NCBI RefSeq assembly: GCF_017875325.1
Contig: NZ_JAGGMN010000001.1
Coordinates: 1,570,140-1,634,139, forward strand
DNA length: 64,000 bases
Source: Methanofollis sp. W23
Lineage (GTDB): Archaea; Halobacteriota; Methanomicrobia; Methanomicrobiales; Methanofollaceae
Direction of reading: 5' to 3'
A program made the translations under genes and the position numbers. This document shows positions 21,865 through 61,847 of this stretch, one piece after another. The first letter of the stretch is position 1. The number at the start of each line of letters is the position of its first letter. The notes under the pieces were generated by a model. That model saw only the letters and a program-made list of their open reading frames with translations, was not told the origin of the DNA and did no database searches.

Positions 21865-23530
21865 CTGCACGACTCTGTTCATGCAGTCGTACCTGATCTC
21901 TCCTGCCCTTCCCGCACAAGTGTGACTCCCCCGCCCGCCCAATTGTCTCTTGCCTGGGCTCTTCAAAAGCCCCTAACTTTGAAGTGTTCACTCCGCTCAC
22001 AGATCGAAAAGCAGAGATTTTCTTGAACCCATTCGTTCGTTTCCATCGGCCTGCGAAGAATTTGTCTTCCCAACTCCCTCTGGCCGTCAGCGATGATCAA
22101 CCCACCTGCCGCCCCCACCGCTCCTCTGTTCGGGGGTCCGGGGGCAACGCCCCCGGGATGAAGATTGGATCAGGAAGTCATATTCAAAATCAATGAAGAG
22201 GGAGTGCCATCCACGACCAATCGTGCGCGGGGGGTTCAGGAGGACGACTGGAAGGAGTCGAGAAGATCTCTGATCTTCAAATGGTCAGTCCCACGCCAGA
22301 GAGAGATATCCCTTTATCGATAGTGGGGAAAGCCATAAACTTTCACTGTCGAGCACAAAGAACTTGGAAATATTTTCAAGGATCTTCATCAGCCATCTCA
22401 CACCACAGATTCATCGAAGACATTCTTCTTCTCATCTTCGCACTCCCGTTGAGTGATCACTCCAGAGAATTTTTCCAGAGCAGGAACTCTCGAACATGTG
22501 AACAGTCCGCGATACGATGAAGAGGGAGGACAACCTTCATCTTCTATTCGTCTTCACTGCGACCTCACTGACGATGATCTTTGGGCTCTGTAGAAATCCT
22601 CTCGATGAATCCCTCTGACTGAGGGCTAGCCATCGAGTTCGCTCCGCTCACACCCCACCACACGATAGGGTGAGGGCGGCAGTACCCCCTTCACGATCAT
22701 TTATTCTGCCTTCCTGACTCTATCTTGCTCCCGGGGGTCCGGGAGCTCGGCCCCCGGCGAGATGATCTGGGAAGGGGGGTGAGTTGCACCTGCATCGAAA
22801 ATTGGCGAGGGTCTCTACAGAATCGATCTTCGCACCTTTCCAGCAAAATTTCAGCATCTGAGGGAAAGATCAATCTCCAGGGAAAGGCATGGGATCTCAC
22901 ACTACTATAGTATAGAGAGAGAGACGCGTCTCTCTCTGTACTCTTCGAGGTGCACGCGTGCCTCGACCGCCTTCTTCAATGCTCGTCCCGGGGGCGAGTG
23001 CCGCCCGGACCCCCAGGATGAAGATTGGGGCGGGAAGGCACAACCAACGATCATGAAGAGAGAGGTGCCATCCCCGCGACATAGTTCCATCTAAAGGAAT
23101 ACCATGAAAATGATCCAGAAGATCGCCTCTCAGGGTTTCCATAATGATTTGAGTCCACCAAACACCGTCTGAACTGACACGAAGATTTCGGATACATCTT
23201 CCGAATGATCAGGCCTCTGCCTTCCCTGTCCTATCTTCGTCGTGGGGGGTCCGGGGGCAACGCCCCCGACATGGTGTTGTGGGAAGGCGTGATGATCCGA
23301 CGTGCCGCCCTGATCATAGAATCTTCCCTGCCATCTCGCGCCGGGGGGAAACCCCCCGGTCCCCCCACGACGAAGATAGCCGAGGGGCGGCGATGAAACA
23401 CGATCCCCACCGGTTCTCCTCTCTTGAAAAGAGAGAGAAAGAGAGCACGTGACGAGAAATTTTCATCATGTATGCTTGAACCCCACGTTCATGCCCGATT
23501 CTACAGAGCCAAAAAAAGAAATTTAAAAAT
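21865..23530. repeat. 1.7 kb repeat island between tRNA-Arg and metG
   Basis: The largest gap in the window. A worn inverted H2/H3 is at 22105-22175, link at 22176-22215 and truncated H1 at 22216-22250. A complete short copy spans 22584-22823: TIR GGCTCTGTAGAAATCCTC, worn H1, link, H2 22708-22775, E module and right TIR (GGTCTCTACAGAATCG). An inverted H2 lies at 22965-23040 with link and part of R6 at 23100-23160. Then H2 23217-23290, inverted H3 23330-23395, R4 23445-23490 and right TIR 23493-23505, which abuts the metG terminator. Stretches 21870-22100 and 22260-22580 look unique and non-coding. Confidence 0.75.
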
Positions 23531-35019: not shown

Positions 35020-35940
35020 GAGGGCGCAACACACCCCTGGACCTTCCAACCCGCACACATCATCATCGGTGGGACACGAACTCTCCCTCATCCCACCTCT
35101 TCTTTTTTGGGGCCTGTAGAGTGGCTTCCTTTTCCCGACGCGAGTAAAATGCTCCAACTTCCCCTCAGTTTCTTGCCAGGGGTTCATCGAATGTTTTGTC
35201 TTCTCATGTCCGCTCTCGCTCGTCCCCTGATTGGCCCCCAGGACGACGATTGAAATGGGAAAACAAGGGCGATGAGTGTGAAGACGAGAGGCGGCCCCCT
35301 GCAGACCTTCATCCGCGAGGGGACCGGGGGCGGCACGCCCCCCAGTGTAGGAGGGTTCAGAATTTCGGCTCTGTAGAATGAGCATGAGGCGAGAACATGC
35401 CTCAAGCATACGAGATGAACATTTTTCGTTGCTGGATCATTCTATTTTAAGACCGGAGAATTGGTGAGGATCATGTTCCATCGCCGCCCCCACCTCTCTT
35501 CGTCGTGGAGGGTCCGGGGGGCACTCGCCCCCTGGTGCGAGATTCCAGGGAAGTTGCTGCGATTGAGGGCGGCACGCCTGATCGACGTGCCTTCCCCCAT
35601 GTTTGTGCCGGGGGCGCTGCCCCCGGACCCCTGGAACAAAGATTGGACCGGGAAGGCACTATCAATGATCATGAAGAGAGTATTGCCGTTCGCCGCCTAT
35701 CTTCGGCGCGGGGGGGTTCGGGGGGCGGCCAAGCCCCCCGTCGAAGAGAGCCCTCGAGATGGATTTCTACAGGGCCGAAATCTCAAATTTCGAGCATTCA
35801 AGACTATCTTTGATCTGCGGGCCCTTTAGAAGACGAGATATTCTACAGAGTCAAAATTGCGCTAATGCGGGTGCTGCTCCTCATGAAGCCTCATCCCGCG
35901 TCACATGCAGGCAAAGGGAGAACCGCAACACAGAAATAGA
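35020..35940. repeat. repeat island with a complete long copy
   Basis: A T6 tract and worn left TIR (GGCCTGTAGAG) are at 35104-35120, followed by a degenerate H1-type region to 35350. A complete long copy spans 35364-35780: TIR GGCTCTGTAGAATG, reversed R4 (CAAGCATACGAGATGAA), H3 35484-35575 with a GCCGCCCC/GGGCGGC outer stem, inverted H2 35588-35668, link ATGATCATGAAGAGAG, H1 35690-35745 and right TIR 35764-35780. Another right-type TIR (ATTCTACAGAGTC) follows at 35850-35862. No gene seen. Confidence 0.8.
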
Positions 35941-36457: not shown

Positions 36458-36901
36458 CCCTGTTCACCTCTTTTTTTTGTGCTCGGTAAAGTTCGGCATG
36501 AATCCTGGGCTCAAGTAAACACAATGAAAATGATTGAATTTCTCAGGAGGAGAGGGATCCTTGCTCCCCTTGAGACGCAGGGACACCACGGGGGGACCAC
36601 CACTCGACTGCCCCACCCATGCCAGTCCTCATCCCGGGGGACCGGGGGGCGCAATCCCGGTGCGAGATGGCAATAAAGATTTGACGATTCGGACAGGTCG
36701 ATCACACTGAAGAATGTTCTATCCTCTACGTCCTGGCTTTAATGGGATCTGATGTGTTCAGATTCTCATGCAAACCAAAATAAACCCTCACTTATTCTTA
36801 GTGTGAGCGCGATTGGACCGCCGCCCCATAGTCTCTTGCCGGGACGAGAAGAGGGGGGAAGACGGTTGAATCGCGCTCGCACCCAGAAAGAGCAAGAGTT
36901 T
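36458..36901. repeat. worn repeat island, boundary shared with the reductase gene
   Basis: Convergent gap. T8 at 36471-36478, a very worn left TIR and R4 (GGCATGAATCCTGGGCTCAAG at 36495-36515), an inverted H3-like hairpin at 36595-36670, then E module and worn inverted H2 at 36800-36880. The right TIR (GAGTTTCTACAGGGC, 36896-36910) runs into the end of the next gene and contains its stop codon. No gene. Confidence 0.65.
36471..36478 (+). terminator. oligo-T terminator
   Basis: T8 tract 13 bases after the lipoprotein gene stop, at the edge of the repeat island. Confidence 0.5.
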
Positions 36902-39110: not shown

Positions 39111-40283
39111 TGGGCCTGAATCGATGCTTCCCTGACTCTGTAGAAACCCTCACCTATTATGCGGAAGGGATGTGTGTCACCCGCCTTCCTACCCTCTTTG
39201 GCCGGGGGCGCTGCTGTCCTTGACCTATCGTGTGGCGGGGGTTTGTGGGGGGCGGCCAAGCCCCAACCAGAGAGATTCATCACGAGGATTTACCATGAAA
39301 ATGATCCAGAAGATCATCGCTTTCGGTTTTCACAAGTATTTGAGCTCACCAGATCCCTTTTAATCCAAAAAAAATAGGATACAACATCCATCATTGTGAT
39401 CGGGCCTCTGCCTTCACGGCCCAATCACCATCCCAGGGGTCCGGGGGCAGCGCCCCCGGGGCGTATGGTGAGGGAAGGCATGATGATCAGAACGTACCCC
39501 CCCATCGCAGATTCTTTCCTGTCATCTCGCACCGGGGGGTTGCACCCCCCGGACCCCCCACGGCGAAGATAGGGTCGGGGCGGCAATTGGGTGGGGGTCC
39601 TCCCGGTGTCCTACTCCTAAGAGGGAGCAAGGATCCACCTTCCAGAGCCCAACCAGAGTTTTCATCGCGTATGCATGAGCCAGGGGTTCATGTCCAATTC
39701 TACAGAACCGCTTCCCTCTCCTTTTCGCCGAAAAGCAACACCGAAGTTTTAAAGATGATCAAATCTCAAAACTTTCCTGGGACGAATATCTCTTCGAACC
39801 AAAATCTTTTCTTCCAGAAATTCTGACCCATCCTACACCTTGGGCGTCCCACCCCCCAACCCCCACTGATGAAGAGTGACGGAGGTTCACATCCCATCGT
39901 CACGATCATCGCTCTGCCTTCCCGCCCCAATCGCCATCCTGGGAGTCCGGGGGCGAGCCGCCCCCCGGGGCGGGGGTGTGGGAAGGCAGAAGGCATGCAT
40001 GGATCCGCAACGAAAAGGGGAGGAATTTCTCATCCTCTCTACTGCTCTCTTCTGGGTGGAGGAGGGCGGGAGAGTGTTGGGATGACCTTCTCATCATAGT
40101 CATATTCTGCCTTCCAGTCTCCATCTTCATGCCAGGGGGGTCCTGGGGGCGACATGGTGCTCGACTTCGATCCGCTTCTCGAACAAAATGGATGAGGGGC
40201 AAGAATCGATCCAGTTCTGAGATGTTATTTTCATCGCGTATGCGTGAACCTCAGGGCCATGCTCGATTCTACAGAACCCAGAA
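39111..40283. repeat. 1.2 kb repeat island
   Basis: Convergent gap between the kinase and the methyltransferase. Left TIR 39133-39150; fused H2/H1 remnant 39180-39265; R6 39285-39360 (TTTACCATGAAAATGATCC); H2 39408-39480; inverted H3 39505-39585; R4 39655-39696 and right TIR 39697-39710; worn H1 39840-39880 with link; H2 39912-39985; partial H2 40105-40160; R4 40228-40265 and right TIR 40266-40280, which is 8 bases from the methyltransferase stop. No gene. Confidence 0.75.
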
Positions 40284-42772: not shown

Positions 42773-43642
42773 CCTCACCCGCGGCCGGGAATCGTCTGCT
42801 GCTCGCGCCGTGGACTCTGTGCTCGAAGATCAGAGTTTTTCTCGACGACACGAAGAACGTCTCTGTAGATCTCCTCCCCTATTCATGGTGTGAACATGAC
42901 TCCTCCTTCTCATTCACGCATACATGATGAACATGATCGTGGGTCTCCAGAGGGTGTGGGCCAGTTTTTCCCCTTGAGCGCGGGACTCCATGAGGGGATC
43001 ACCACCCGCCTGCCGCCCCCGCCTCTCCTCGTTGTGGGGGGTCCGGGGGGGTGCAACCCCCAGCGCGAGATGACAGGGATGACTCTACGATCTGGGGCGG
43101 CACGAATGATCATCACGCCTTCCCCCACGCTCTCGCCTGGGGCGCGGCGCCCCGGACCCCCGAGACGGCGAGAGGAGGGGGAAGGCAGATCGCCGATCAT
43201 GCTGAAGGCGCCTCTCTCATCTTCAACGAGATCAGGATGGTTCAAATTCTCATACAAACCTGGAGAGATAATCGTCAGGATCATCTTCATGGTAAACCCT
43301 CAGTTCTTTTGGTTCGAGTATGATTCAACCGCCCTCCCCCCTCGTCTCGCCGGGGACGAGTGCTGCTCGGACCCCCGGGATGAAGATTGGGCAGGAAGGC
43401 ATATTCGTAATCCCTGGAGAGGGAGTGTCCTCCTCGACCCATCATGGTGTGGGGGGGGGCGGGGGACGGCCGTGAGCGCCCCCCGTCAGAGAGAGTCATC
43501 CAGAAGATTTCTACAGAGCCAGAATTCCTGGATATGCTTTAGATCTCAAGTCTCAGGTGGTGGCGTGCCATCCCCCGCGAGAGGCGCCAGGTCCGGCAAA
43601 GATATATCATGGCCCAGGTGCACTTCCCGCCGAGGGGGAGAG
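42773..43642. repeat. repeat island before the oxidoreductase operon
   Basis: Left TIR 42859-42876 (GTCTCTGTAGATCTCCTC), reversed R4 42895-42930, H3 43000-43105 (GCCGCCCC/GGGGCGGC), inverted H2 43113-43190, reversed R6 43240-43300, a second inverted H2 43325-43402, link, H1 43425-43480 and right TIR 43503-43520. The copy is about 660 bp, a long form with an extra R6-H2 segment. The open frame that runs from 42890 through this island is not credible as protein: its residues come from GC-rich repeat DNA. Confidence 0.8.
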
Positions 43643-47045: not shown

Positions 47046-47800
47046 GGGTCGTCGCAGACCAGAGACGATCTCAGAGGGATCTGCAGAGACCTTCACTTCC
47101 GATCACTCGGCCACGCCTCAGACCCTACAAGATGATCGAGAAATAGAGGGCGGCACGACTCTGTAGAAACAGGCATGAAGGTGGGGTTCAAGCATACGCG
47201 ATGAAAATTGTTCTGAGCAGCGCTACAGAGTTTAAGAGGATCCTTCTCCTCGCGATTGGGCATCTGGGAGATCCGGTTTCATCGCCGCCCCCTGCATATC
47301 TTCATCGTGGGGGGGTCCGGGGGGTGCAACCCCCCGGCGTGAGACGGCAGTGAAGGTTCTGCGATTGGGGGCGGCACCCATGATCATCACACCGTCCCAT
47401 ACCCTCGTGCCGGGGGGCGAATGCCGCCCAGACCCCTGGGATGAAGATTGGGCCGGGAAGCCGTAATCAATGATCTTGAAAAGGAAATTGCCATCCTCCA
47501 CCTATCGCTCGCGCGGGGGGTCCAGGGAACGGCAAGCCCCCCGTCGAAGAGATCATCAAGAGGATTTCTACAGAGCCGAAATTATCTCAACTCCCTCTGG
47601 TCGACCCCCCATACCTCCCACACCAGGATAATAGAGAGGACAGCAATTCCTTTTTTTATAACTCTTTGAGCGAGCCTTCCCCCTATCTTCATCCGGGTCG
47701 GGGGCAGAGTCCCAGGTGAGTATGATGGGTGAGGCAGACACGTCACACTCACACCAGGAGTTGATGAAGAATTCTACACAGCCAGAACATCGGCATTTGA
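47046..47800. repeat. repeat island with a complete long copy
   Basis: A complete long copy spans 47156-47577: left TIR CGACTCTGTAGAAAC, reversed R4 (GGTTCAAGCATACGCGATGAAAAT), H3 47278-47380 (GCCGCCCC/GGGGGCGGC), inverted H2 47392-47466, link ATGATCTTGAAAAGG, H1 47500-47545 and right TIR 47560-47577 (AGGATTTCTACAGAGCCG). Same module order and nearly the same length as 35364-35780. A partial H2 with E module (CACACTCACACC) and right TIR is at 47675-47784. No gene seen. Confidence 0.8.
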
Positions 47801-48150: not shown

Positions 48151-49650
48151 ATGAACGCACTTTATACAAAAATGGTAGACGAAGCCATGGCGGCCCAGCG
48201 CGCCGACGTGGCGACGATCAAAGAGAAGCGAGGGACGAAGTACACCGTCCCGGACGGGAAGGCCTACCTTGATGCGGTCACGCAGATGGGGGTCGCCGAA
48301 GGACAGAGCAAGGAGGTGATCGACCTCCATGTGGAGTCGGTCAAGGCCCATTACGGGCGCCTCTCCGCCCTCACCAACTATGTCAGGCCAGAGGACGACC
48401 CCTTTGTCGAGCACTACCAGACGCCCCCGGTGCTTGAGATCCTCTGCGAGGAAGACCCGGGCTTTAAGAAGAGCCTGGAAGCCTTCATCGAGGGGATCGG
48501 GAAGGCCGAGGCCATCATCGGGCGCGAGTCGGCCCGCCGGTACGCCGGGTTCTACGGCCCGACCTGCGTCGTGGACTTCGCCCTCATCCCGGGCAGCACC
48601 TCGAACGTCGTCAACCAGATCCTCAGGACCGTCGATATCCCGACCCCCCACAAACAGGCGATCCTCGCGGCAAAGTCATGGGGGATGAACACCAGTTACG
48701 GCGTCGGCGAGGTCTTTGCCAACGCGCTGGAGGCCGGCGACACCCTGACCGACGCCACCAGAAAGGAGGTTGAGCAGCTCCAGGCGATCTACGACCACCC
48801 GGTCGATGCCCAGGTCGACCTGATGGAAAAGGCCGGGATGACATCCTTCGACCCGAAGAAGTACATGGAAGGGTACAAACAGGACATCAGACCCTTCGTG
48901 AAGGCTGCGATCGACGCCGGGGTCCACTACGGCAACATCGTCACCGTCCCGGCCTACTGTGTCGGCGACATCTCCCACCACATCGCCCAGTCCACCTACA
49001 ACATGTGCAAGGACGACGTGGTCATGGCGGTGATCGAGGCGGTGACCGACGTCATGGAAAAAAGCCTGCGTGCCTCCCTCGACAAGGTCAGGAGCGAGTC
49101 CCAGGTCCTCTCCCTGGCCACTGGATCATCGGCGGCGGCGACCGAGTACATCCTCGAACTCGACGGCTTCAACGCTCCCGTCGTCGTCGACCTCCTCACC
49201 AAACGCTTTCACAACTATGTCCAGCTCTACCCGACCCGCGGGGCGGCCGCGGAGTTGCACAACTGCGACTTCATGGACATGATCTGGCGGGGATGGCGGC
49301 TTCTCGACTCGGCCAGGCGCAAACGCAACGGTGGCGGCGACAAACTCGTCCCGCTCGCCGCCGGCTACCCTGTCGACCTCTCGCCCATCCACGAGAACGA
49401 GGTGTTGATGATCCCGCAGCGCTACGCCTACCCGGCCTCGGCGATCACGGTGCGTTTCTCGGCCCTGATGCGCCTTGCCGACTATCCTTGCCTGCTGACC
49501 AGCGAACCGGTGACGGCGACGATGATGACCAATGTCATCGCCCTCCACCCCGAGCAGATCGCCGCCCCGGTCCGGGCCTGCAAGGACTGTGCCTCGGCCT
49601 CGATGGTCGACTTCAGGCACGAATACTGCCAGTGGAGAGAGGCGGTCTGA
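48151..49650 (+). CDS. DUF2193 family methanogen protein
   Basis: A 499-residue soluble protein of DUF2193, an uncharacterised and strongly conserved family of methanogens. It has no signal peptide or membrane helix. Conserved-looking cysteines occur in GPTCVVDFAL, PAYCVGDISHHIAQ, NMCKDD, LHNCDFMD and YPCLL, and the C-terminus carries CKDC (C477, C480) with C493 in RHEYCQW, so a metal or iron-sulfur site is plausible. GGAGGG is perfectly placed before ATG 48151. A DUF2180 zinc-ribbon gene and aqpM follow within 250 bases in the same direction. Function not known. Confidence 0.92.
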   Translation: MNALYTKMVDEAMAAQRADVATIKEKRGTKYTVPDGKAYLDAVTQMGVAEGQSKEVIDLHVESVKAHYGRLSALTNYVRPEDDPFVEHYQTPPVLEILCEEDPGFKKSLEAFIEGIGKAEAIIGRESARRYAGFYGPTCVVDFALIPGSTSNVVNQILRTVDIPTPHKQAILAAKSWGMNTSYGVGEVFANALEAGDTLTDATRKEVEQLQAIYDHPVDAQVDLMEKAGMTSFDPKKYMEGYKQDIRPFVKAAIDAGVHYGNIVTVPAYCVGDISHHIAQSTYNMCKDDVVMAVIEAVTDVMEKSLRASLDKVRSESQVLSLATGSSAAATEYILELDGFNAPVVVDLLTKRFHNYVQLYPTRGAAAELHNCDFMDMIWRGWRLLDSARRKRNGGGDKLVPLAAGYPVDLSPIHENEVLMIPQRYAYPASAITVRFSALMRLADYPCLLTSEPVTATMMTNVIALHPEQIAAPVRACKDCASASMVDFRHEYCQWREAV

Positions 49651-49677
49651 ACCGATTCGCGGTCAGGTGAGGCAATC

Positions 49678-49884
49678 ATGAAATGCTATGTCTGCGCCCA
49701 GGAGGGCAAGGATACTGAGGCCGCAGGGATCTGCATCGTCTGCGGGATGGGCCTCTGCACCGGGCACATGGTGCGGGAGGACGTCGACCTCTGGGAAGGG
49801 GGATATCCCTTCCCTGCACAGAAACTCGAGAAGAAACTCCCCAGGATCCTCTGTCCGGAGTGCGCGGCGGCGTTGAAGGAGTGA
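49678..49884 (+). CDS. DUF2180 small zinc-ribbon protein
   Basis: A 68-residue protein with four Cys pairs: CYVC at 3-6, CIVCGMGLC near 19-25, H29 and CPEC near 60-63. This is the DUF2180 pattern, a B-box-like zinc finger found in methanogens beside DUF2193. AGGTGAGG precedes ATG 49678. It lies 27 bases after DUF2193 and 6 bases before aqpM, so all three are an operon. It may mediate protein-protein contacts; function unknown. Confidence 0.9.
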   Translation: MKCYVCAQEGKDTEAAGICIVCGMGLCTGHMVREDVDLWEGGYPFPAQKLEKKLPRILCPECAAALKE

Positions 49885-49890
49885 CGATCC

Positions 49891-50634
49891 ATGGCATCAC
49901 TCGCAAAGCGGAGTGTCGCCGAACTGGTCGGGACCTTCATCCTGGTCTTCTTCGGGGCCGGGGCGGCGGCGGTCACCCTGATGCTCGCCCACGGGGCCGC
50001 GGCGCCGAACGAGTTCAACGTCGGGATCGGCGCCCTCGGCGGTCTGGGCGACTGGCTTGCCATCGGTCTGGCCTTCGGGATCGCCATCGCGGCGGCGATC
50101 TACGCCTTCGGCCGGGTCTCGGGGGCGCACATCAACCCGGCGGTGACCATCGCCCTCTGGGCCATCGGGAAGTTCCCGGCAAGAGACAGCGTCGCCTATA
50201 TCGTCGCCCAGTTCGTCGGGGCCGGCATCGCCAGTCTGGCCTTCTTCGCCTGCGCCGGTATGGACGCCGTGACTATCGGCGGGCTCGGTGCCACGACGCC
50301 CTTCCCCGGCATCTCGATAGGACAGGCGGTCCTGGTCGAGGCGATCGGCACTTTCCTCCTGATGCTCGCCATCATGGGAGTGGCCGTGGACAAAAAGGCC
50401 CCGACGGGATTTGCCGGTCTGGTCATCGGGCTGACCGTCGCCGGGATCATCACGACGACCGGGAACATCGCCGGGTCGTCGCTCAACCCGGCCCGTACCT
50501 TCGGGCCGTACTTCGGCGACTGGCTCATCGGCGGCACCAACCTCTGGGGGTTCTTCCCCATCTACGTCATCGGACCCATCCTCGGGGCGGTCGTCGCGGC
50601 GTTCCTGTATCAGTGGGTCGCTGCGGAGGACTGA
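49891..50634 (+). CDS. aqpM: aquaporin AqpM
   Basis: Archaeal MIP channel of 247 residues with six helices. NPA motifs are at 82-84 and 199-201. The selectivity filter residues F62, I187, S196 and R202 occupy the same positions as in Methanothermobacter AqpM, whose wider, isoleucine-containing filter conducts water and poorly glycerol and has been proposed to pass small molecules such as H2S. It is the last gene of the DUF2193-DUF2180 operon, starting 6 bases after the zinc-ribbon gene, so its substrate may relate to that enzyme-like protein. Identification is secure. Confidence 0.95.
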   Translation: MASLAKRSVAELVGTFILVFFGAGAAAVTLMLAHGAAAPNEFNVGIGALGGLGDWLAIGLAFGIAIAAAIYAFGRVSGAHINPAVTIALWAIGKFPARDSVAYIVAQFVGAGIASLAFFACAGMDAVTIGGLGATTPFPGISIGQAVLVEAIGTFLLMLAIMGVAVDKKAPTGFAGLVIGLTVAGIITTTGNIAGSSLNPARTFGPYFGDWLIGGTNLWGFFPIYVIGPILGAVVAAFLYQWVAAED

Positions 50635-52815: not shown

Positions 52816-53610
52816 GAAAACATGGACACCGGCCCTGTTGGGGTGCTCTGGAGAATCATCTTGACGGTTCTCTTCGCCGGGGGGCAGGGCGCCCCCCGAA
52901 CCCCCCACACGGAGATAGGTGGCGGATTGCAACCCCCTCTTCATGGCCATCTCTCCGCCTTCCCGTCCCAATCGCAATCCCGGGGGTCCGGGGGCAGCGC
53001 CCCCGGCATGGTGGTGTGGGAAGGCGTGATGATCAGACGTGTCGCCCCCCATCACAGGATCCTCACCGCCATCTCGCGCCGGGGGTTTCACCCCCGGACC
53101 CCCACGGACGAAGATAGGTTGGGGCGGCGATGGAATAGGATCCACACCTATTCTCTTCTCTTGAAAAGAGAGAGAGAGAGAGCACGTGACGAGAAATTTT
53201 CATCCCGTATGCTTGAGCCAGAGGTTCATGCAAAATTACCATGAAATAATCCAGACGATCATCTCTTCAGGTTTACATGAGAGTTTGAACTCGCCATATC
53301 CATTTGATGCCGATACGCAGAGGATAGAAAATTCTTCAGATGAATCGGCCGCCCTCAATCGTCGAGATTTCCTTGCCATCTCGCGCCGGCGGGAAACCCC
53401 CCGGACCCCCCACGACGAAGATAGGTGGGCGCGGCCATGGAACACGATCTCCGCCGATTCTCCTCTCTTGAAAAAGAGCGATCAAGCAACGAGAAATTTT
53501 CATCACGTATGCCTGAGCCCAAAGCGTATGCTCAATTCTACAGAGTCCAAAAAAATGAAAGCCTCTCCACACCCCGGCCACCATCTTTTTTCCTGAAGCA
53601 ACTGATAGAC
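52816..53610. repeat. repeat island with H1-H2-H3-R4-R6-H3-R4 order
   Basis: Worn left TIR (GGTGCTCTGGAGAATCATC) 52840-52858; inverted H1 52872-52930; link CCCTCTTCATGGCC; H2 52958-53027 (GCCTTCCC/GGGAAGGC); H3 53060-53130; R4 53175-53225 (GAGAAATTTTCATCCCGTATGC); R6 53233-53300; second H3 53370-53445; R4 53485-53525; right TIR 53534-53549 (AATTCTACAGAGTCC). An A7 run follows before the DUF362 gene. No gene seen. Confidence 0.8.
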
Positions 53611-53618
53611 AGGGTACT

Positions 53619-54728
53619 ATGACAGCCAGGGTCTACTTTGCAGAGGCCGGGATCGGCCCGCGGCGTGAGAACACCCTCGACAAGATCAGGCGGCTCTTCG
53701 ACGCCGCGGGGATCGCCTCGTGCATCGGCGACGGCGACCTGACGGCGATCAAACTCCACTTCGGGGAGTGGGGCAATGACACCCATATCAGCCCGGTCTG
53801 GGTGCGGGAGGTGGTCGACCGGGTGCGATCGGCCGGGGGCAACCCCTTCCTCACCGACACCAACACCCTGTACTCGGGGATGCGGGAGAACACCGTCGAC
53901 CACCTCACCACCGCCCTCCGCCACGGGTTCGGGTATGAGGTGACCGGGGCGCCGCTGGTCATCGCCGACGGTCTCAGGTCAGGGAACTGGCGGGAGGTCG
54001 AGATCAGGAAGAACTATTTCGAGCAGGTGAAGATCGCCGGCGACATCCTGGACGCCGAGAGCATGGTCGTCCTCTCCCATGTGAAGGGGCATGGGATGGC
54101 AGGGTTCGGGGGGGCGATCAAGAACCTCGCGATGGGGTGCGCCCCGGCCGCCGGGAAGATGGCGCAGCACCAGGGGCTCTGCCCGGTCGTGGACGAGGAC
54201 GCCTGCGAGGGGTGCTGGGCCTGCGTCAATGCCTGCCCGAAGGGCGCCCTCGAAGCGGGGGACGAGACGGTGGAGGTGGTCTCGACCCGGTGCATCGGGT
54301 GCGGCGAGTGCATGACCGTCTGCCCGACCGGAGCGCTCGACTTTGACTGGGAAAACGGGCTGGTGCCCTTCATGGAGATGATGACCGAGTACGCCCTCGG
54401 CGCCGTGCAGGAGAAGGAGGGGAAGGTCGGCTACCTCAACTTCCTCGTGGACATCACCCCTGACTGCGACTGCTGCCCATGGAGCGACTCGCGGATCGTT
54501 CCCGACATCGGGATCCTGGCCTCCACCGACCCGGTCGCCATCGATGCCGCAAGTTTCGACCTGGTCAATGCGAGGCCAGGGATCAGGGAAAGCCGCCTTC
54601 TCGGCAACTATGCACCAGGCGAGGACAAGTTCAAGGGCGTCGCCCCGTACACCGACGGGATGTGCCAGGTGCGCTACGGCGAAGAGATCGGTCTTGGCAC
54701 TGCCGACTATGAACTCATCACCATCTGA
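53619..54728 (+). CDS. DUF362 iron-sulfur protein
   Basis: A 369-residue cytosolic protein of the DUF362 family with an inserted ferredoxin domain. Two complete [4Fe-4S] motifs, CEGCWACVNACPKGAL and CIGCGECMTVCPTGAL, lie at about 192-240. A further DCDCC cluster (near 285) and HGMAGFGGAIKNLAMG are conserved marks. It presumably transfers electrons to a catalytic centre formed by DUF362 residues; the reaction is unknown. AGGGT precedes ATG 53619. The next gene overlaps its end by 20 bases, so the two are coupled. Confidence 0.9.
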   Translation: MTARVYFAEAGIGPRRENTLDKIRRLFDAAGIASCIGDGDLTAIKLHFGEWGNDTHISPVWVREVVDRVRSAGGNPFLTDTNTLYSGMRENTVDHLTTALRHGFGYEVTGAPLVIADGLRSGNWREVEIRKNYFEQVKIAGDILDAESMVVLSHVKGHGMAGFGGAIKNLAMGCAPAAGKMAQHQGLCPVVDEDACEGCWACVNACPKGALEAGDETVEVVSTRCIGCGECMTVCPTGALDFDWENGLVPFMEMMTEYALGAVQEKEGKVGYLNFLVDITPDCDCCPWSDSRIVPDIGILASTDPVAIDAASFDLVNARPGIRESRLLGNYAPGEDKFKGVAPYTDGMCQVRYGEEIGLGTADYELITI

Positions 54729-55680
54729 AGGGCCAGACTTCGCCACCCTCAGGGAGGAGGAGGCCGGGCTTGCGGCGGCGGCCGCCGGGATCTCTGGAAC
54801 GCCAGGGGTGACCGCCCTCGCCTACTTCGTCCTCAGGGCCGGGCCTGGAGAAGGGGCGGCGGTGGCAGGCGAGGTCGTCGGGCTCTCCAGGTACCGCCCT
54901 GCACAGGCGACTGAGGCCGACGCCCTCCTCACGATCGTCCTGGAGTGTCCGAGATGTCCGCCCATCCTGGTCAGGGAGGAGCGAACGATCAGGAAGGGGA
55001 CCGGGTGTGCGGCGGTGGCGTTCAGGGTGCGCGACCTCCCCGCCTTCACCAGGGCATGTGCGGCCGCGGCGATCCCTCACCGCCAGGCCGGTGCCGGGAC
55101 CGTCGAGGCCGGGCGCCCTGCCCTCACCGGAGTGCGTTATCTCTTCACCACCGACGGCACCCCTGACCCCGAAGGACGGGAGGTCCCCCTCTCGCTCCAT
55201 GTCCCTGACCGCCCCTACCTCGCGGCCGCCAGGTGCCCCGACCACCTGGCCATCCGCCTCGACCCCCGCGACCGGGCGGCGGCGGTGCTCGAGTGCCTCC
55301 ACCTCACCGGCGGGGTCTATGAGGGTTCGGAGTATGTCGGCCGTTTCCGCTCGGTCAACAGCGTGGTGCGGGTGAAAGAGGCAGACTTTGCCCTCAACTT
55401 TGTTTCAGGGACCACACCCGGCGCGACCGACCCCTTCCTCGCCCGTTTCGGCCCCGGCGTCCACCACCTGGCCCTTGCGACCCACGGCGTCGCGGGCGTC
55501 GCGGCCGGGATGGAAGAGGACGGCATCGGGTTCGCCCTCCCGCTCTCTGGATCGCCGGCCGCCGGCGTCAGGCAGATGATGGCCGCGAGGTCAGGACTGA
55601 CCGGGCTGATCGTCGAGTATATCGAACGCTTCGACGATTTTACAGGCTACTTCGATCCCGGCGCCATCGTGCGGCTCTGA
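54709..55680 (+). CDS. VOC-fold dioxygenase-like protein (4-HPPD family)
   Basis: A 323-residue, two-domain vicinal-oxygen-chelate protein. The iron triad of 4-hydroxyphenylpyruvate dioxygenase looks intact: H179 (CPDHLAIRLD), H253 (GVHHLAL) and E303 (LIVEYIER). The C-terminus DFTGYFDPGAIVRL resembles the family's helix. Spacing between the ligands is shorter than in classical HPPD, so the substrate pocket is different. Start ATG 54709 lies inside the DUF362 gene; the open frame to 54544 is antisense-like upstream and no earlier start has a ribosome site. A dioxygenase is unexpected in a strict anaerobe, so it may be a non-oxidative VOC enzyme or an oxygen detoxification/halogenated compound enzyme. 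Coupled to the iron-sulfur protein. Confidence 0.8.
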   Translation: MNSSPSEGPDFATLREEEAGLAAAAAGISGTPGVTALAYFVLRAGPGEGAAVAGEVVGLSRYRPAQATEADALLTIVLECPRCPPILVREERTIRKGTGCAAVAFRVRDLPAFTRACAAAAIPHRQAGAGTVEAGRPALTGVRYLFTTDGTPDPEGREVPLSLHVPDRPYLAAARCPDHLAIRLDPRDRAAAVLECLHLTGGVYEGSEYVGRFRSVNSVVRVKEADFALNFVSGTTPGATDPFLARFGPGVHHLALATHGVAGVAAGMEEDGIGFALPLSGSPAAGVRQMMAARSGLTGLIVEYIERFDDFTGYFDPGAIVRL

Positions 55681-55685
55681 CCCCC

Positions 55686-56384
55686 TTATTCGACAGGAGG
55701 TTCGCCAGCCAGGGCCCGCACCGCCAGGCCCCTCAGGTACACCACCTGACCATGCTCAGGGCAGACCTCCAGGACGGCGTCGCAGGCCTCACGCGCCTCT
55801 TCATACCTTCCCAGACGGTACAGGGACCATGCCACGTTCTTGCGGGCGTCCAGGTCGGTCGGGTCAAGTTCAATGGCCCGGTCGAAGTTCCTGACCGCCT
55901 CCTCGTGTCGCTCCATCAGGGCGAGGACAATCCCCCGCATGAACCAGACCGCCTGGTTCTCAGGCTCGATCTCGGCGGCCCGGTCATAGGCGGCAAGGGC
56001 GCTGTGCAGGTGGCCCACCGCCTTGAGGGACCGGCCGAGGATGTACCAGGCATAGGCATAGTCGGGGTCGACCGCCACCGCCCGGCGGGCACTCTCTGCC
56101 GCCTCCCAGAACTCGTCCACATAATAGAGGGCCATCCCCCGCCGCAGCCAGACCTCAGGGAGGTCGGGGTTGACGGCAAGTGCCTGATCGAAGCATGCAA
56201 TCCCCTCATCGATCCGCCCGGTCTCGGTCAGGACCAGTCCCTTCCGGTACAGCGCACCAGGGTGGCCGGGCTCTTCCCTCAGGGCGGCGTCAAATCTCTC
56301 CAGCGCCCCGGCATAGTCCCCCTTCTCCAAACAGGCGTTTCCGTCTGCGACCAGCCGCGCCGGACTCTCCACCAGTTGCTGCAT
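55686..56384 (-). CDS. tetratricopeptide repeat protein
   Basis: A 232-residue soluble protein made almost wholly of about six TPR units (for example GNACLEKGDYAGALERFDAAL and AIELDPTDLDARKNVAWSLYRLG). There is no signal peptide and no catalytic domain, so it is a protein-binding scaffold. It ends 5 bases from the VOC gene stop, convergent with it, so there is no repeat island here. Start ATG 56384 is the first in frame. Confidence 0.9.
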   Translation of the reverse strand: MQQLVESPARLVADGNACLEKGDYAGALERFDAALREEPGHPGALYRKGLVLTETGRIDEGIACFDQALAVNPDLPEVWLRRGMALYYVDEFWEAAESARRAVAVDPDYAYAWYILGRSLKAVGHLHSALAAYDRAAEIEPENQAVWFMRGIVLALMERHEEAVRNFDRAIELDPTDLDARKNVAWSLYRLGRYEEAREACDAVLEVCPEHGQVVYLRGLAVRALAGEPPVE

Positions 56385-56467: not shown

Positions 56468-57025
56468 ATGGACCTCCCCACTGTATTCCTCATCGCGGTC
56501 GGTCTGGCCATGGACGCCACCGCAGTCTCGGTCGCAGGCGGCGTCTCGGTCAGGGAAGGCAGGTTCAGGACCGCCCTCACCCTCGCCCTCATCTTCGGCG
56601 GGTTCCAGACCGGGATGACCATCCTCGGGTGGTACGCCGGGTCGGCCCTCGCCGGGTTCATCGGCTGGATCGACCACTGGGTCGCCTTCTTCCTCCTCCT
56701 CTTCATCGGCGGAAAGATGGTCTACGAAGGCCTGAAAGGAGAAGAAGGCGAACCGGTCGCCTTCGAGAAGCCGCTCGTCCTCCTGACCCTGGGGGTCGCC
56801 ACCTCCATCGACGCCCTGGCCGTCGGGCTCTCCTTCGCCGTCCTCGGGTCGGCCGTCCTGGTGCCGGCGGCGATCATCGGGATCGTGAGCGCCGTCCTCT
56901 CGCTCGTCGGGTTCTGGTGCGGCGGAGTCTTTGGTGGGAAGCACCGCGAACGGGCCGAGGTCATCGGCGGGGCGGTGCTGATCTTCATCGGGGTGCGGAT
57001 CCTCTTCGAGCACCTCTTCATCTGA
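56468..57025 (+). CDS. mntP: manganese efflux pump MntP
   Basis: Six-helix membrane exporter of 185 residues that removes excess Mn(II). Conserved acidic residues lie in the first and fourth helices (LAMDATAVSVAGG with D16; TSIDALAVGLSF with the matching aspartate), and FIGGKMVYEGLKG is the loop signature. The two halves are related, as expected of the family. It overlaps the msrA 3' end by 8 bases, convergently. No mntS-like or riboswitch element is seen in the short leader. Confidence 0.9.
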   Translation: MDLPTVFLIAVGLAMDATAVSVAGGVSVREGRFRTALTLALIFGGFQTGMTILGWYAGSALAGFIGWIDHWVAFFLLLFIGGKMVYEGLKGEEGEPVAFEKPLVLLTLGVATSIDALAVGLSFAVLGSAVLVPAAIIGIVSAVLSLVGFWCGGVFGGKHRERAEVIGGAVLIFIGVRILFEHLFI

Positions 57026-57497
57026 CCGGCCTGACACGCCGGCGCATCTTCTCGAAATAGTGCTGGTGATACTCTTCGGCCCGCCAGAACCGTCCGGCGG
57101 GCACGATCTTGGTGACGACCGGGCGCCGGTATTTCCCTGACCGGTCGAGTCTCTCTTTTTCTGCAAGGGCGAGGTCCCGCTCTCCCTCATCGGTGAAAAA
57201 GATCGCCGAGCGGTACTGACTCCCGACGTCTGGCCCCTGGCGGTCAGGGGTCGTCGGGTCGTGGAGCGTCCAGAAGTGACTGAGGAGGGCGGCATAGGTG
57301 ACCTTCCCGGGGTCGTAGACCACCTCCACCGTCTCGGCATGTCCGGTCTTCCCGGTGCAGACCTGGCCATAGGTGGGATGGTCGGCGGTCCCTCCCATAT
57401 ACCCGACCGCCGTCTCGAAGACGCCGACCACCTCCCGAAATGCTTCCTCGACTCCCCAGAAACACCCGGCCGCGAAGTATGCTCGCTTCAGGCTCAT
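57018..57497 (-). CDS. msrA: peptide methionine sulfoxide reductase MsrA
   Basis: Reduces methionine-S-sulfoxide in proteins. The GCFWG active-site motif is at residues 10-14 with the catalytic cysteine C11, and GHAETVEV, the conserved His-Glu stretch, is near 50. The 159-residue length is normal. ATG 57497 is chosen over the frame start at 57548 because GAGGAGGGGGC precedes it and the conserved domain begins right after. Divergent from nfi; the 3' end overlaps mntP by 8 bases. Confidence 0.95.
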   Translation of the reverse strand: MSLKRAYFAAGCFWGVEEAFREVVGVFETAVGYMGGTADHPTYGQVCTGKTGHAETVEVVYDPGKVTYAALLSHFWTLHDPTTPDRQGPDVGSQYRSAIFFTDEGERDLALAEKERLDRSGKYRRPVVTKIVPAGRFWRAEEYHQHYFEKMRRRVRPVR

Positions 57498-57556
57498 GCC
57501 CCCTCCTCTGCACGAGGGGTGATAGCCCTTATGGGGAGGGGGCGCCACCTCTCCTC

Positions 57557-58225
57557 ATGCACCCGCTCTGGCCAGACGACCCCGACGCGGCCCTCGCCCT
57601 CCAGGCACGCCTCCGCGATCATATCGTCGCCAGAGGTGCACCGGCCCCGGCCCTGGTCGCCGGGCTCGATGCCGCATACTCTCGGGACGGGGCGAGGGTC
57701 TACGGCGCCGCCGTCCTCTTCTCATTTCCCGGCCTGGAGCAGATAGACAAGGCATGGGCCGCGTGCGAGGTGCGGTTCCCGTACATCCCAGGGCTCTTTG
57801 CCTTCAGGGAAGGCCCGGCCCTCTGTGCCGCCCTCGAAGCGCTGGACCGGCCCCCCGACCTCATCCTCGTCCACGGCCACGGCATCGCCCACCCGCGCCG
57901 GTGCGGGATCGCCTCGCACCTCGGCGTCCTCCTCGGCCTCCCCTCCATCGGCGTCGCCGACCGTCTCCTCGTCGGCGAGGCCCGAGCACCAGGTCAAGAG
58001 AGGAACGACGCCACCCCGGTGTTCTTTGAGGGCGAGGTGGTCGGGTGGGCGGTGCGGACCAGGAGCGGTGTCCGCCCGGTCTACGTCTCCCCTGGCCACC
58101 TCGTCGGTCATGCCGCGGCGGTCGACCTGGTCCTTGCCATGAGCAGGGAATACCGGCGACCAGAACCCCTCAGGGCCGCCCACCGCTGCGCCTCCGCGGC
58201 CAGGGCGGGCGAAACCAAGCGTTGA
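57557..58225 (+). CDS. nfi: endonuclease V
   Basis: Cleaves DNA near deaminated bases, chiefly hypoxanthine. Conserved acidic residues appear in AGLDAAYS (D41), [33 protein letters not shown] (the core with the H/G-rich loop) and [13 protein letters not shown]. 222 residues. ATG 57557 is used; CTTATGG lies about 27 bases before it, suggesting a leaderless transcript, and the longer frame back to 57440 is antisense to msrA. Sits in a small DNA/protein repair neighbourhood with MsrA. Confidence 0.92.
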
Positions 58226-58251
58226 TATCAGGGCAGGGTATAGGGGGAGCC

Positions 58252-60705
58252 ATGGAGAGGGTGGAGAAGAAAGAGAAGACCCGCACCGAGACCATGAAGG
58301 TGACCGGGATGCACTGCGCCACCTGCGCCGTCACCATCGAGAAGGCCCTTCAAGGGACGAAGGGAGTCCGCGGCGCCTCGGTGAACCTCGGGGCCGAGCA
58401 GGCTTCGGTGGAGTACGACCCCTCGCTGGTCTCGGCGGCCGAGATCGAGGAGGCGGTGACCGGCGCAGGCTACGGGGTCGTCACCGGAAGGGCCACCCTC
58501 AAGGTCGGCGGGATGATGTGCGCCACCTGCGTGAAGACGGTCGAGACAGCATTGCAGGCGCTTCCTGGCGTCCACACCGCCATGGTGAACCTCGGGGCCG
58601 AGCGGGCCTATGTCACCTACAACCCCGCAGTCGTCGGCGTCGCTGAGATGAGAGCGGCGATCGAGGGCGCCGGGTACCGGTACCTCGGGATGGAAGGCGA
58701 GGAGACCGGCGAGATCGAGCGCACCGCGCGGGAGGCCGACCTCAAGGACCGACTCAGGCGGACCGTCGTCGGTGCCGTCGCCTCGGCGGCCCTGATGGCG
58801 CTGATGTTTGTTGCACCGCCCCTCCCGGTGGCGATGCCCTACGTCCTCCTGGTTGTCGCCACTCCCCCGTTCCTCTACCTCTCATGGCCGATCTTCCTTG
58901 GGGCCTGGCGGGCCCTGAAGAACCGGACCCTGAACATGGACGTGATGTACTCGATGGGCATCGGCGTCGCCTTCGGCGCCTCGGTGCTGGGGACCTTCGG
59001 GGTCGTGCTCACCACCGATTTTCTCTTCTATGAGACGGCGGTGATGCTCGCCACCTTCCTCACCCTGGGGCGGTACCTGGAGGCCAGGGCGAAGGGACGG
59101 ACCGGCGAGGCGATCGCCGCCCTCGTCCGTCTCAGGCCAAAGACCGCCACCGTGCTCGTCGACGGCGGGCGGGTGGAGCGGCCTATCGACGAAGTGACGC
59201 CTGGAGACGTGGTGCTGGTCCTGCCAGGCGCCCAGGTCCCGGTCGACGGCGAGGTGAGGCGGGGGGAGAGTTATGTGGACGAGTCGATGGTCACCGGAGA
59301 GCCGGTCCCTGTCGGGAAAGGGCCTGGCAAAAGTGTCGTCGGCGGGACGGTCAACGGCGACGGGGTGCTGGAGGTGAGGGCGACGCGGGTCGGGAGAGAC
59401 ACCGTCCTGGCCCAGATCATCAGGCTTGTCGAGGAAGCGCAGGGGACGAGGCCGCCGGTCCAGCGGATCGCCGACACCGCGGTCACCTACTTTATCCCGA
59501 CAGTCCTTGCCATCGCTACGGCATCCTTCCTGATCTGGTATTTTGTCCTGGACGCCCCGCTCATCTTCGCCCTCTCCACGCTCATCGCCGTCCTGGTCGT
59601 CGCCTGCCCCTGCGCCCTCGGACTTGCCACGCCGACGGCGATCACCGTCGGGGTCGGGCGCGGGGCAGAACTCGGGATCCTGATCAAGAGCGGCGAGGCA
59701 CTGGAGGTGGCCGAGGGCCTGGACGTCGTCGCCTTCGACAAGACCGGCACCCTCACCAGGGGGACGCCGGCCGTAACCGACGTGGTGGGGATCGGCGAGG
59801 ACGAGGTGGAGGTGCTTGCCCTCGCCGCCGGCATCGAACAGAACTCGCAGCACCCGGTGGCCGCCGCGATCGTGCGCCGGGCAGAAGATGAGGGGGTCGC
59901 ACGCCCTGAGAGCACGGGCGTCGAGACGGTACGCGGCAAGGGGATCGTCGCCGCGGTCGGCGGGCGGCGGGTAGTTCTCGGCAACCGCGCCCTCCTCGCG
60001 GACGAGGGGGCCGTGCTGGCGGGCCGGGCCGCGGAAGTGGGTGAACGGTATGAAGCCGAGGGCAAGACTGTCTCGTACCTCGCGGCCGACGGCGAGGTCG
60101 TCGGGGTGGTCGCCGTCGCCGACACCCTCAAACCGACGGCGATGAGGGCGGTCGAGGCCCTGAAAGAGATGGGGCTCCCGGCCGTGATGGTCACCGGGGA
60201 CAACCCGCGCACGGCCAGGGCCGTCGCCGACCAGGTCGGGATTGACCGCGTCCTGGCCGGGGTGCTCCCCGACGAGAAGGTGGCCGAGGTGCGGGCGCTC
60301 CAGGAGAAGGGGGGGCATGTTGCCTTTGTCGGGGACGGGATCAACGACGCCCCGGCCCTGGCCCAGGCCGACCTCGGGATCGCCATCGGCGGCGGGACCG
60401 ACGTGGCCATCGAGAGCGGCGACGTCGTCCTGGTCAGGGACGACCTCACCGACGTCCCGGCCGCAGTGCAACTCGCGAGAAAGACCATCGGCCGGGTGAA
60501 ACTCAACCTCTTCTGGGCCTTCGCCTACAACGCCGCCCTCATCCCGGTGGCCGCGGGGGTGCTCTACCCCTCCTTCGGGATCGTCTTCAGGCCCGAGTTC
60601 GCGGGCCTCGCCATGGCCGCCAGTTCGGTCACGGTCGTCACCCTCTCGCTCCTCCTGAAAGGATATATACCGGAAGCGAAGAGGGGAGAGCCAGGGGAAG
60701 TCTGA
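58252..60705 (+). CDS. copA: copper-translocating P-type ATPase CopA
   Basis: Cu(I) exporter of the P1B type, 817 residues. Two N-terminal heavy-metal domains carry HCATC (C22, C25) and MCATC (C90, C93). The transport site is CPC at 452-454, the phosphorylation site DKTGT begins at D496, and the [10 protein letters not shown] motif is near 697-706. TGE (VTGEPVP) is also present. GGGGGAGCC lies 3 bases before ATG 58252. A 48-codon YHS gene overlaps its stop. No copper-responsive regulator gene is adjacent. Confidence 0.97.
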
Positions 60706-60868: not shown

Positions 60869-60893
60869 AGGTCGGGGGGGAACGACCTTTTTT
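60869..60893 (+). terminator. hairpin plus oligo-T terminator of the copA operon
   Basis: AGGTCG (60869-60874) pairs with CGACCT (60883-60888) around a GGGGGGAA loop and is followed by a run of T. The T-run is also the outer edge of the next repeat island's TIR. Confidence 0.6.
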
Positions 60894-60894
60894 C

Positions 60895-61847
60895 GACTCT
60901 GTAGAATCGGGCATGAGCCCTGGGCTCAAGCATACGGGATGAAAATTTCTCGTCACTTGCTCTCTCTCTTTTCAAGACAGGAGAACTGGTGGAGACTTCG
61001 TTCCATCGCCGCCCCCACCTATCTTCGTCGTGGGGGGTCCGGGGGGTTTCCCCCCGGCGCGAGATGGCAGGGAAATCTCGTCGATGGGGGCGGCCGATCC
61101 ATGAGAAGAATTTTCTATCCTCTGTGTATTGGCTTCAACGTGATATGACGAGTTCAAAATCTCATGTAAACTTGAAGAGAGGATCTTCTGGATCATTTTC
61201 ATGGTAAATCCTCTGGATCTCTCTCTGGTGGGGGGGCGTGCCGCCCCCCAAACCCCCCGCACCAAGATAGACAGAGGACGGCAATCCCCCTTCAGGGATT
61301 TTGAATATGCCTTCCCGGCTCAATTTCATCCTGGGGGTCAGGACGGCACTCGCCCCCGGCGAAAGACGGCAGGAAGGCATTTGAATCACGTTCAAATCCA
61401 GCATCGGTGAGAATTTCTACAAACCCAGAATATCCATTTAGAACCCATAGAACAAATACGCACCCCACTCACCAGACCGACCCTCGCCCCCACGAAAATA
61501 CGCTCATATCATCCTCCATTCCTGGATCTGGACCCCTGACCCCGGCCCAGATCAGAGAGATCTCTGGATCGAGCATATAGGCCTCAGTCCACAGAACCCA
61601 GGCATTATCATGGACCCTCCCCGGCTCCTGTTGCCCCGTATGAGTGAGAGTGATGTCCCCCACCCCCCCGACCCGATAAAAGGACCTGCGTGCCTCGTGG
61701 CTGCACGGAAATTGCCGTGATTCAGGGGTGGGGAAGACCCGAAGATGGGCGGCGGGGAGGTGAGAATGGGGTGTTTCCATTCTCAGAACCCCATTTCCCG
61801 ACTGAAAACCTCCATCCCTCCTGTTGGATATACTGAATACGACATCA
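60895..61847. repeat. repeat island after the copA operon
   Basis: One copy spans 60895-61426 (about 530 bp): left TIR ACTCTGTAGAATCGG, reversed R4 with an AGCCCTGGGCT palindrome, H3 60999-61110 (GCCGCCCC/GGGGGCGGC), reversed R6 61150-61210, inverted H1 61215-61270, link, H2 61305-61380 (GCCTTCCC/GGAAGGC) and right TIR 61409-61426. 61430-61847 shows no module and no gene; it carries a minus-strand T-poor tail of the lipoprotein gene. Confidence 0.8.

Follow-up and report, generated by a model that had tools for sequence, protein, structure and literature searches.

The fold of 4-hydroxyphenylpyruvate dioxygenase (HPPD) is known, to our knowledge, mainly from dioxygenases. Hydroxymandelate synthase (HmaS) is an O2-dependent enzyme, and HPPD-type sites need no external reductant. 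Enzymes of the methylmalonyl-CoA epimerase and glyoxalase type, in the vicinal oxygen chelate (VOC) superfamily, differ in their ligand set, contain a single VOC pair in each chain, and provide an example of O2-free chemistry. In the 3-dehydroshikimate dehydratase QuiC, a TIM-barrel domain lies ahead of an HPPD-like domain. According to one study, plant HPPD requires a Ser267-Asn282-Gln307-Gln293 network, and the substitutions Q307A and Q293A cost AtHPPD about 99-fold and about 3722-fold, respectively (PMC6750108). We analyzed a stretch of 64,000 nucleotides from the archaeon Methanofollis sp. W23 (contig NZ_JAGGMN010000001.1, positions 1,570,140 to 1,634,139), referred to here as the window, in which the gene of an HPPD-like VOC protein overlaps that of a DUF362 iron-sulfur protein. 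In our judgment, the chances are about even that this protein stands for a widespread uncurated family, with hosts almost all without aerobic respiration, that acts on a chelating acid by O2-independent chemistry at a 2-His-1-Glu site of the oxygenase type. The features of the gene pair are as follows.

53619..54728, forward strand: DUF362 protein, 369 amino acids (PF04015, 177.6 bits, cut-off 24), with a predicted LarA-like fold and an inserted 2x[4Fe-4S] ferredoxin domain.
54204..54236, forward strand: first CxxCxxCxxxC motif of the DUF362 protein (C196-C206), from sequence; cysteines invariant in 10/10.
54291..54323, forward strand: second CxxCxxCxxxC motif of the DUF362 protein (C225-C235), from sequence; cysteines invariant in 10/10.
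54709..54728, forward strand: DUF362/VOC gene overlap of exactly 20 bases, from the coordinates of the open reading frames (ORFs).
54709..55680, forward strand: VOC protein with a predicted HPPD fold, 323 amino acids, ATG at 54709 (AlphaFold2, Foldseek, VIA).
55243..55245, forward strand: H179 codon, predicted metal ligand 1, aligned with the first HPPD ligand His.
55465..55467, forward strand: H253 codon, predicted metal ligand 2 by alignment; preceded by an invariant H252.
55573..55575, forward strand: Q289 codon, counterpart of the Gln in the HPPD motif LLQ(I/L)FT.
55615..55617, forward strand: E303 codon, predicted metal ligand 3, aligned with the HPPD Glu.

By sequence alone, the window VOC protein is barely recognizable. 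It scored 24.2 bits against Pfam Glyoxalase_4, just under the cut-off of 27, and 15.1 bits (E 0.012) against the HPPD equivalog TIGR01263, whose cut-off is 277; two of its relatives, at 23.2 and 36.6 bits, also fell far under that cut-off. When the protein by itself was searched against the PDB with phmmer, the matches were at chance level (E no better than 0.17, neurotoxin light chains included) and were ignored. No relative was found in genome_contigs with the window protein as a single sequence because this copy is too diverged; an alignment of the family succeeded. That alignment (A1) came from 30 matches in 199 Methanomicrobiales genomes, of which G176 and G052, both weak and with one stop each, were dropped, leaving 28 usable order-level relatives as its rows. 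With A1 as the query, a profile scan of genome_contigs yielded 104 relatives, 80 of which were kept, and relatives were also present in 23/392 genomes of a phylum sample. The wider alignment, A2, has 68 rows; seven partial sequences (L094, L104, L106, L111, L113, L137, and L148) and a further six that were for the most part near-duplicates (L100, L142, L155, L156, L161, and L165), were left out of it. A 113-row set was also used, which is partly redundant, as the same contigs were drawn from two collections. In five loci (L036, L106, L118, L119, and L138), a simple ORF caller gave no VOC gene.

The family as a whole was easier to place. TIGR01263 (NCBIfam) matched 65/68 members at E <= 1e-3 (best, 7.8e-13), weak matches to TIGR03081 and Glyoxalase_4 were found for 38/68 and 44/68, respectively, and the family profile found HPPDs in the PDB at E about 1e-6. 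The libraries searched held no full-length curated model for this family, the Pfam matches being to short Glyoxalase models only, and no paper on it or on the VOC-DUF362 pair was found in literature searches whose coverage left out most subscription journals. An AlphaFold2 model of the window VOC protein based on A2 reached a predicted local distance difference test score (pLDDT) of 89.7 and a predicted template modeling score of 0.88. Its best PDB match by Foldseek was the HmaS structure 2r5v (E 2.7e-18), and VIA aligned 278 residues with HmaS (Z 25.9; root mean square deviation, 3.0; 18% identity). HPPD reached a Z of up to 25.8, so that HmaS and HPPD, with a gap of under 1, are tied. The window VOC protein is thus modeled as a complete two-domain HPPD/HmaS fold. 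Both the alignment and the model give paired VOC modules with the metal site in one barrel, as expected of a VOC superfamily member.

An earlier sequence-only reading of this DNA had proposed that H179, H253, and E303 match the iron ligands of HPPD. The three residues were confirmed at these positions in the translation and proved invariant in 28/28 rows of A1 and 68/68 rows of A2. Since no true HPPD (TIGR01263, E 1e-20) was found in 196 Halobacteriota genomes, five true HPPDs from Planctomycetota were taken for comparison. A profile-profile alignment between them and the family was significant (E 1.7e-9 global, 3.7e-7 local) and put H179, H253, Q289, E303, and R307 on the first His, the second His, the Gln of LLQ(I/L)FT, the Glu, and the Arg of HPPD, respectively; a block alignment agreed for the triad. 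The chance that these residues lie outside the metal site, which that reading had named as grounds for giving it up, was looked at and not borne out: by alignment, H179/H253/E303 sit in a predicted HPPD-type metal site. Q289 and R307 are invariant in A2, as are D178, R183, R189, S215, H252, Y304, G313, and F315. In the 113-row set, E303 departs only in L084, a contig-edge fragment, and the triad columns have gaps in 1 to 3 rows. The patterns used to search genome_contigs held the neighborhood of H179 or H252/H253, so that part of the His conservation reflects this selection; E303, Q289, and R307 were absent from these patterns.

Outside the triad, the family departs from HPPD at catalytic positions. 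Directly before the second His, all ungapped rows of the 113-row set have H252, whereas HPPD has Gln. At position 239, the Gln of the HPPD SQI motif (equivalent to AtHPPD Q293 by spacing, in our own assignment) is replaced by Pro in 106/106 ungapped rows outside the window clade and by Ala, Glu, or Ile within it. Furthermore, between its second His and LLQ(I/L)FT, HPPD carries a segment of some 30 residues that the family lacks. Because two key Gln residues are replaced, this segment is missing, and the score lies far under the TIGR01263 cut-off, the window VOC protein, as judged from these features, is not an HPPD.

The 80 kept loci span at least 15 phylum-level names, and we take the host groups to be nearly all anaerobic. 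Archaeal hosts were Methanothrix, Methanoregula, Methanolinea, Thermoplasmata, Undinarchaeales, and Promethearchaeota. The bacterial ones included Cloacimonadota, Neomarinimicrobiota, Krumholzibacteriota, Bipolaricaulota, Planctomycetota, Hydrogenedentota, and Zixibacteria, as well as Desulfovibrio relatives, Nitrospiraceae, Fermentibacteria-type lineages, and Bacillota with Clostridium and Peptoclostridium; named strains were Peptoclostridium litorale DSM 5388 and Clostridium punense DSM 28650. The family is rare in Clostridia (1/291 genomes, the centre genome itself). Heme-copper oxidase subunit I (COX1, PF00115) was found in 1 of 42 host genomes, which we chose among the 80 loci after dropping most near-duplicate methanogens, the window's own genome lying outside this search. 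The same search found COX1 in 43/59 Planctomycetota, including 6/6 genomes with a TIGR01263 match (1/42 versus 6/6, Fisher p 5.7e-7, with G511 belonging to both samples). Homogentisate dioxygenase (hmgA) was found in 0/47 host genomes. This distribution speaks against an ordinary HPPD role and raises the likelihood of O2-free chemistry, but is no proof of it. A different case is that of Bacteroidota from methanogenic systems, probably microaerobic ones, in which HPPD genes belonging to the usual tyrosine pathway have been reported (PMC8674449).

Fold, residue identities, and host distribution are computed results. The explanation that best fits them, to which we give an even chance, is an uncharacterized, anaerobe-associated branch of the HPPD/HmaS fold with a divalent metal on the triad, a chelating acid as the substrate, and an O2-free step. 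We infer the metal, the substrate, and the reaction type as follows. One divalent metal, most likely Fe2+ or Mn2+, would be bound by H179/H253/E303 and chelated by a 2-oxo or 2-hydroxy acid substrate through its two adjacent oxygens; H252, Q289, and arginines R183 and R307 would position and polarize this substrate. The step itself would be an O2-free proton transfer or lyase-type reaction, such as enolization, isomerization, epimerization, or a lyase reaction, as in other VOC enzymes. The sequence-only reading had expected that a strict anaerobe would not run HPPD and that a different metal chemistry was likely. A reaction other than that of HPPD is indeed likely because the hosts are almost all without heme-copper oxidase, have no hmgA, and carry replaced pocket residues.

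The principal alternative is that the VOC protein is an O2-using Fe(II) 2-oxo-acid oxygenase, switched on in O2-exposed anaerobes for O2 removal, repair, or a signaling product. We consider this doubtful, although several observations fit it and thereby weigh against an O2-free step. The complete HPPD/HmaS fold and the triad are as an oxygenase would have them, and neighbors in several lineages (CopA, ferritin, MsrA, and MntP, as well as peroxiredoxin nearby and, in several Methanothrix loci, TspO adjacent to VOC) hint at oxidative or metal stress. Cytochrome bd was found in 8/47 hosts (0/5 window-genus genomes), and therefore some hosts do meet O2; an anaerobe-biased distribution is no proof of O2 independence because anaerobes also keep O2-using defense enzymes. 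The 42 hosts were handpicked and are phylogenetically nonindependent, within Planctomycetota the COX1 difference (1/3 versus 43/59) was not significant, and the genome_contigs patterns were built from methanogen sequences, so that aerobic members could be missed. Finally, AlphaFold places no metal, so the predicted occupancy of the triad follows from the alignment. On the other hand, in Methanomicrobiales, CopA, ferritin, MsrA, and MntP remain where VOC is absent and are therefore no markers of its function; the oxygenase explanation is also at odds with the loss of the two catalytic Gln residues and one segment of HPPD and with the near absence of heme-copper oxidase from the hosts.

The five window-genus VOC proteins group in one clade, whose branch carries 3.5 changes per column and for which a long-branch warning was given. 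R99, Q133, P239, F291 (to Met), N319, and V320, nearly universal elsewhere, are lost in 5/5, and E101 is lost in 4/5; this version thus lacks an N-domain motif and the C-terminal Asn-Val. VOC matches were absent from 7 of the 12 genomes of the genus (source genome included). Among three congeners, the ratio of nonsynonymous to synonymous substitution rates (dN/dS) was 0.23-0.28 for VOC, about twice that for DUF362 (0.10-0.17). All of this would fit a gene adrift in the window genus, a relic that has been relaxed or repurposed and no longer has its original activity. We regard such drift as unlikely: twelve metal-site and conserved residues (D178, H179, R183, R189, S215, H252, H253, Q289, E303, R307, G313, and F315) are kept in 5/5, the dN/dS values are low, and the model is confident. 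The VOC gene is under purifying selection, looser than that on DUF362, and the copy is fast-evolving yet keeps its predicted metal site. Its function may have shifted in this genus.

The sequence-only reading had also coupled the VOC protein to the DUF362 protein and suggested an electron-requiring reaction. The 20-base overlap and the 2x[4Fe-4S] character of the DUF362 protein were both borne out by the coordinates and by the PF04015 match and the two motifs listed above. The DUF362 model, built at low depth (10 sequences; pLDDT, 79.6), had LarA 2yjg as its best Foldseek match (E 1.5e-4) and looks like a lactate racemase into which a ferredoxin-like part has been inserted. No function for DUF362 was found in the parts of the literature searched that were accessible. 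The VOC gene is followed in the window by these genes.

55686..56384, reverse strand: TPR protein (Pfam TPR); its counterpart is directly 3' of DUF362 in three congeners without VOC (L168, L169, and L170).
56468..57025, forward strand: MntP manganese-efflux-type protein (PF02659, 4.1e-45; synteny).
57018..57548, reverse strand: peptide methionine sulfoxide reductase (MsrA), putative start (PF01625, 1.3e-61; synteny).
58045..60705, forward strand: CopA-type heavy-metal P-type ATPase (Pfam E1-E2_ATPase and two HMA stretches; synteny); the true start probably lies downstream of that of the ORF.

If the two proteins were a redox pair, DUF362 would pass electrons to the VOC metal site. Besides the overlap, such a pair would be consistent with the linkage of the two genes, within about 2.5 kb and on one strand, in 17 of the 28 VOC-bearing genomes of the order; these 17 fall in two clades: 5/5 of the window genus and 12/12 of genera g5 and g15 (Methanolinea-type, judged by contig identity with L099). 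The 12 Methanoregulaceae loci have a VOC-DUF362 spacing of 1.5-2.4 kb, and the gene order in g5/g15 is CopA-VOC-membrane protein-ferritin-DUF362. An independent pair was found on a Cloacimonadota contig (L123), with the gene order reversed (VOC, then DUF362), a gap of 12 bp, and a DUF362 that is 41% identical. The pair is therefore not confined to the window, as these recurrences show. However, an orthologue of DUF362 was present in 164/199 Methanomicrobiales genomes (119/132 of the better ones) against 28 for VOC, making DUF362 a near-core gene of the order. No DUF362 was found in the stretches fetched around VOC in the other 11 of the 28 genomes, and only 10/80 wider VOC loci had one (nine Methanoregulaceae-type and L123). 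Five congeners without VOC keep DUF362 in the same place, at 74-76% identity, followed, as far as the stretches reach, by MntP, MsrA, what we take to be an endonuclease-V-like gene, and CopA, with the TPR gene in three. VOC was absent beside DUF362 in all 15 further genomes of the order whose DUF362 surroundings were fetched; seven of them retain a group of CopA, ferritin, and DUF362 genes (G029, G017, and G139, with no VOC found; G011, G142, and G158, with VOC elsewhere; and G176, with a weak VOC-like match elsewhere), and in the other eight DUF362 lacks these neighbors. CopA is thus linked to DUF362 whether VOC is present or absent. Because DUF362 is near-core and stays in place where VOC is absent, the VOC gene appears to be an optional passenger of the CopA/DUF362 locus, with DUF362 a neighbor and no obligate electron donor. 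The proposed functional coupling therefore did not hold up, nothing was found to show a need for electrons, and we consider a redox pair very unlikely. DUF362 may belong to metal handling.

Methanoregulaceae loci typically combine a copper-type P-ATPase CopA, a TPR or membrane protein, ferritin, DUF362, and often a glutamate-synthase-domain protein (CopA-ferritin-DUF362 in L038, L044, L046, L047, L050-L052, and L056-L060 and in L179, L181, L185, L188-L190, and L192). In the window, two long copies of a dispersed repeat (intergenic, about 310 bases), at 53244-53560 (forward) and 60888-61198 (reverse), 86% identical and inverted relative to each other, bracket the DUF362-VOC-CopA segment. Partial copies lie at 53068-53219, 23304-23521, 35401-35573, 47267-47375, 43012-43111, 36636-36776, and 39515-39706, and the repeat has many matches in the congener L035 as well. 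Farther upstream, 48151-50634 holds a DUF2193 gene (886 bits), then a DUF2180 gene and a gene that is presumably aquaporin-like, an order kept in several congeners.

A function could not be read from gene neighbors in other lineages, as no partner was common to all, and this approach was dropped. In seven Methanothrix-type loci (L090, L096, L100, L102, L105, L109, and L147), a small cupin gene lies directly 5' of VOC, within about 120 bases, and in Methanothrix-type loci L090, L094, L109, L120, and L141 a TspO/MBR gene lies directly 3'. Isoprenoid-type neighbors were seen in L150 (ABC1 kinase and an amine-oxidase-type flavoprotein) and on an Undinarchaeales contig (L091:6055-11283), where VOC lies between aconitase-X-like and isopentenyl-type genes, presumably aconitase X, type-2 isopentenyl isomerase, and isopentenyl phosphate kinase. 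A link to isoprenoids was rejected, such neighbors occurring in these two loci only.

If an O2-free step is correct, the HPPD fold, which is targeted by drugs and herbicides and regarded as a scaffold for O2 activation, has an anaerobe branch, and this would bear on whether such sites began as O2-free VOC enzymes and took up O2 later. When annotation software assigns the label "HPPD" or "dioxygenase" in genomes of methanogens, Cloacimonadota, or Clostridium, O2-based tyrosine breakdown should accordingly not be read from it.

Compared with known systems, the window VOC protein is closest in fold to HmaS (PDB 2r5v and 3zgj), with which it has the 2-His-1-Glu site in common; given the tie with HPPD, fold alone favors neither, and this comparison is at the fold level only. 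With HPPD (TIGR01263; PDB 3isq, 1t47, and 1cjx), it shares the full-length fold, the triad, the Gln of LLQ(I/L)FT, and Glu-x-x-x-Arg, and the family outside the window genus also has the C-terminal Phe/Asn helix; HPPD differs in the Gln before the second His, the SQI Gln, the additional segment, and an hmgA partner that VOC hosts lack. Enzymes of the epimerase and glyoxalase type are related at the superfamily level and through weak family matches; in this comparison, the window protein reached only E 0.29 at best by sequence against the PDB. QuiC was considered and rejected: the HPPD fold spans residues 22-323 of 323, with no TIM barrel in front, and the QuiC model NF042435 matched 1/68 family members (E 4.5e-4). 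LarA is like the window DUF362 protein in fold and, according to one source, in clan, its DUF2088 and PF04015 belonging to the same Pfam clan (PMC11770544); the window protein differs from it by the 2x[4Fe-4S] insertion. For the VOC protein, the fold and the metal triad were already known; the family that carries them is uncurated in the libraries searched.

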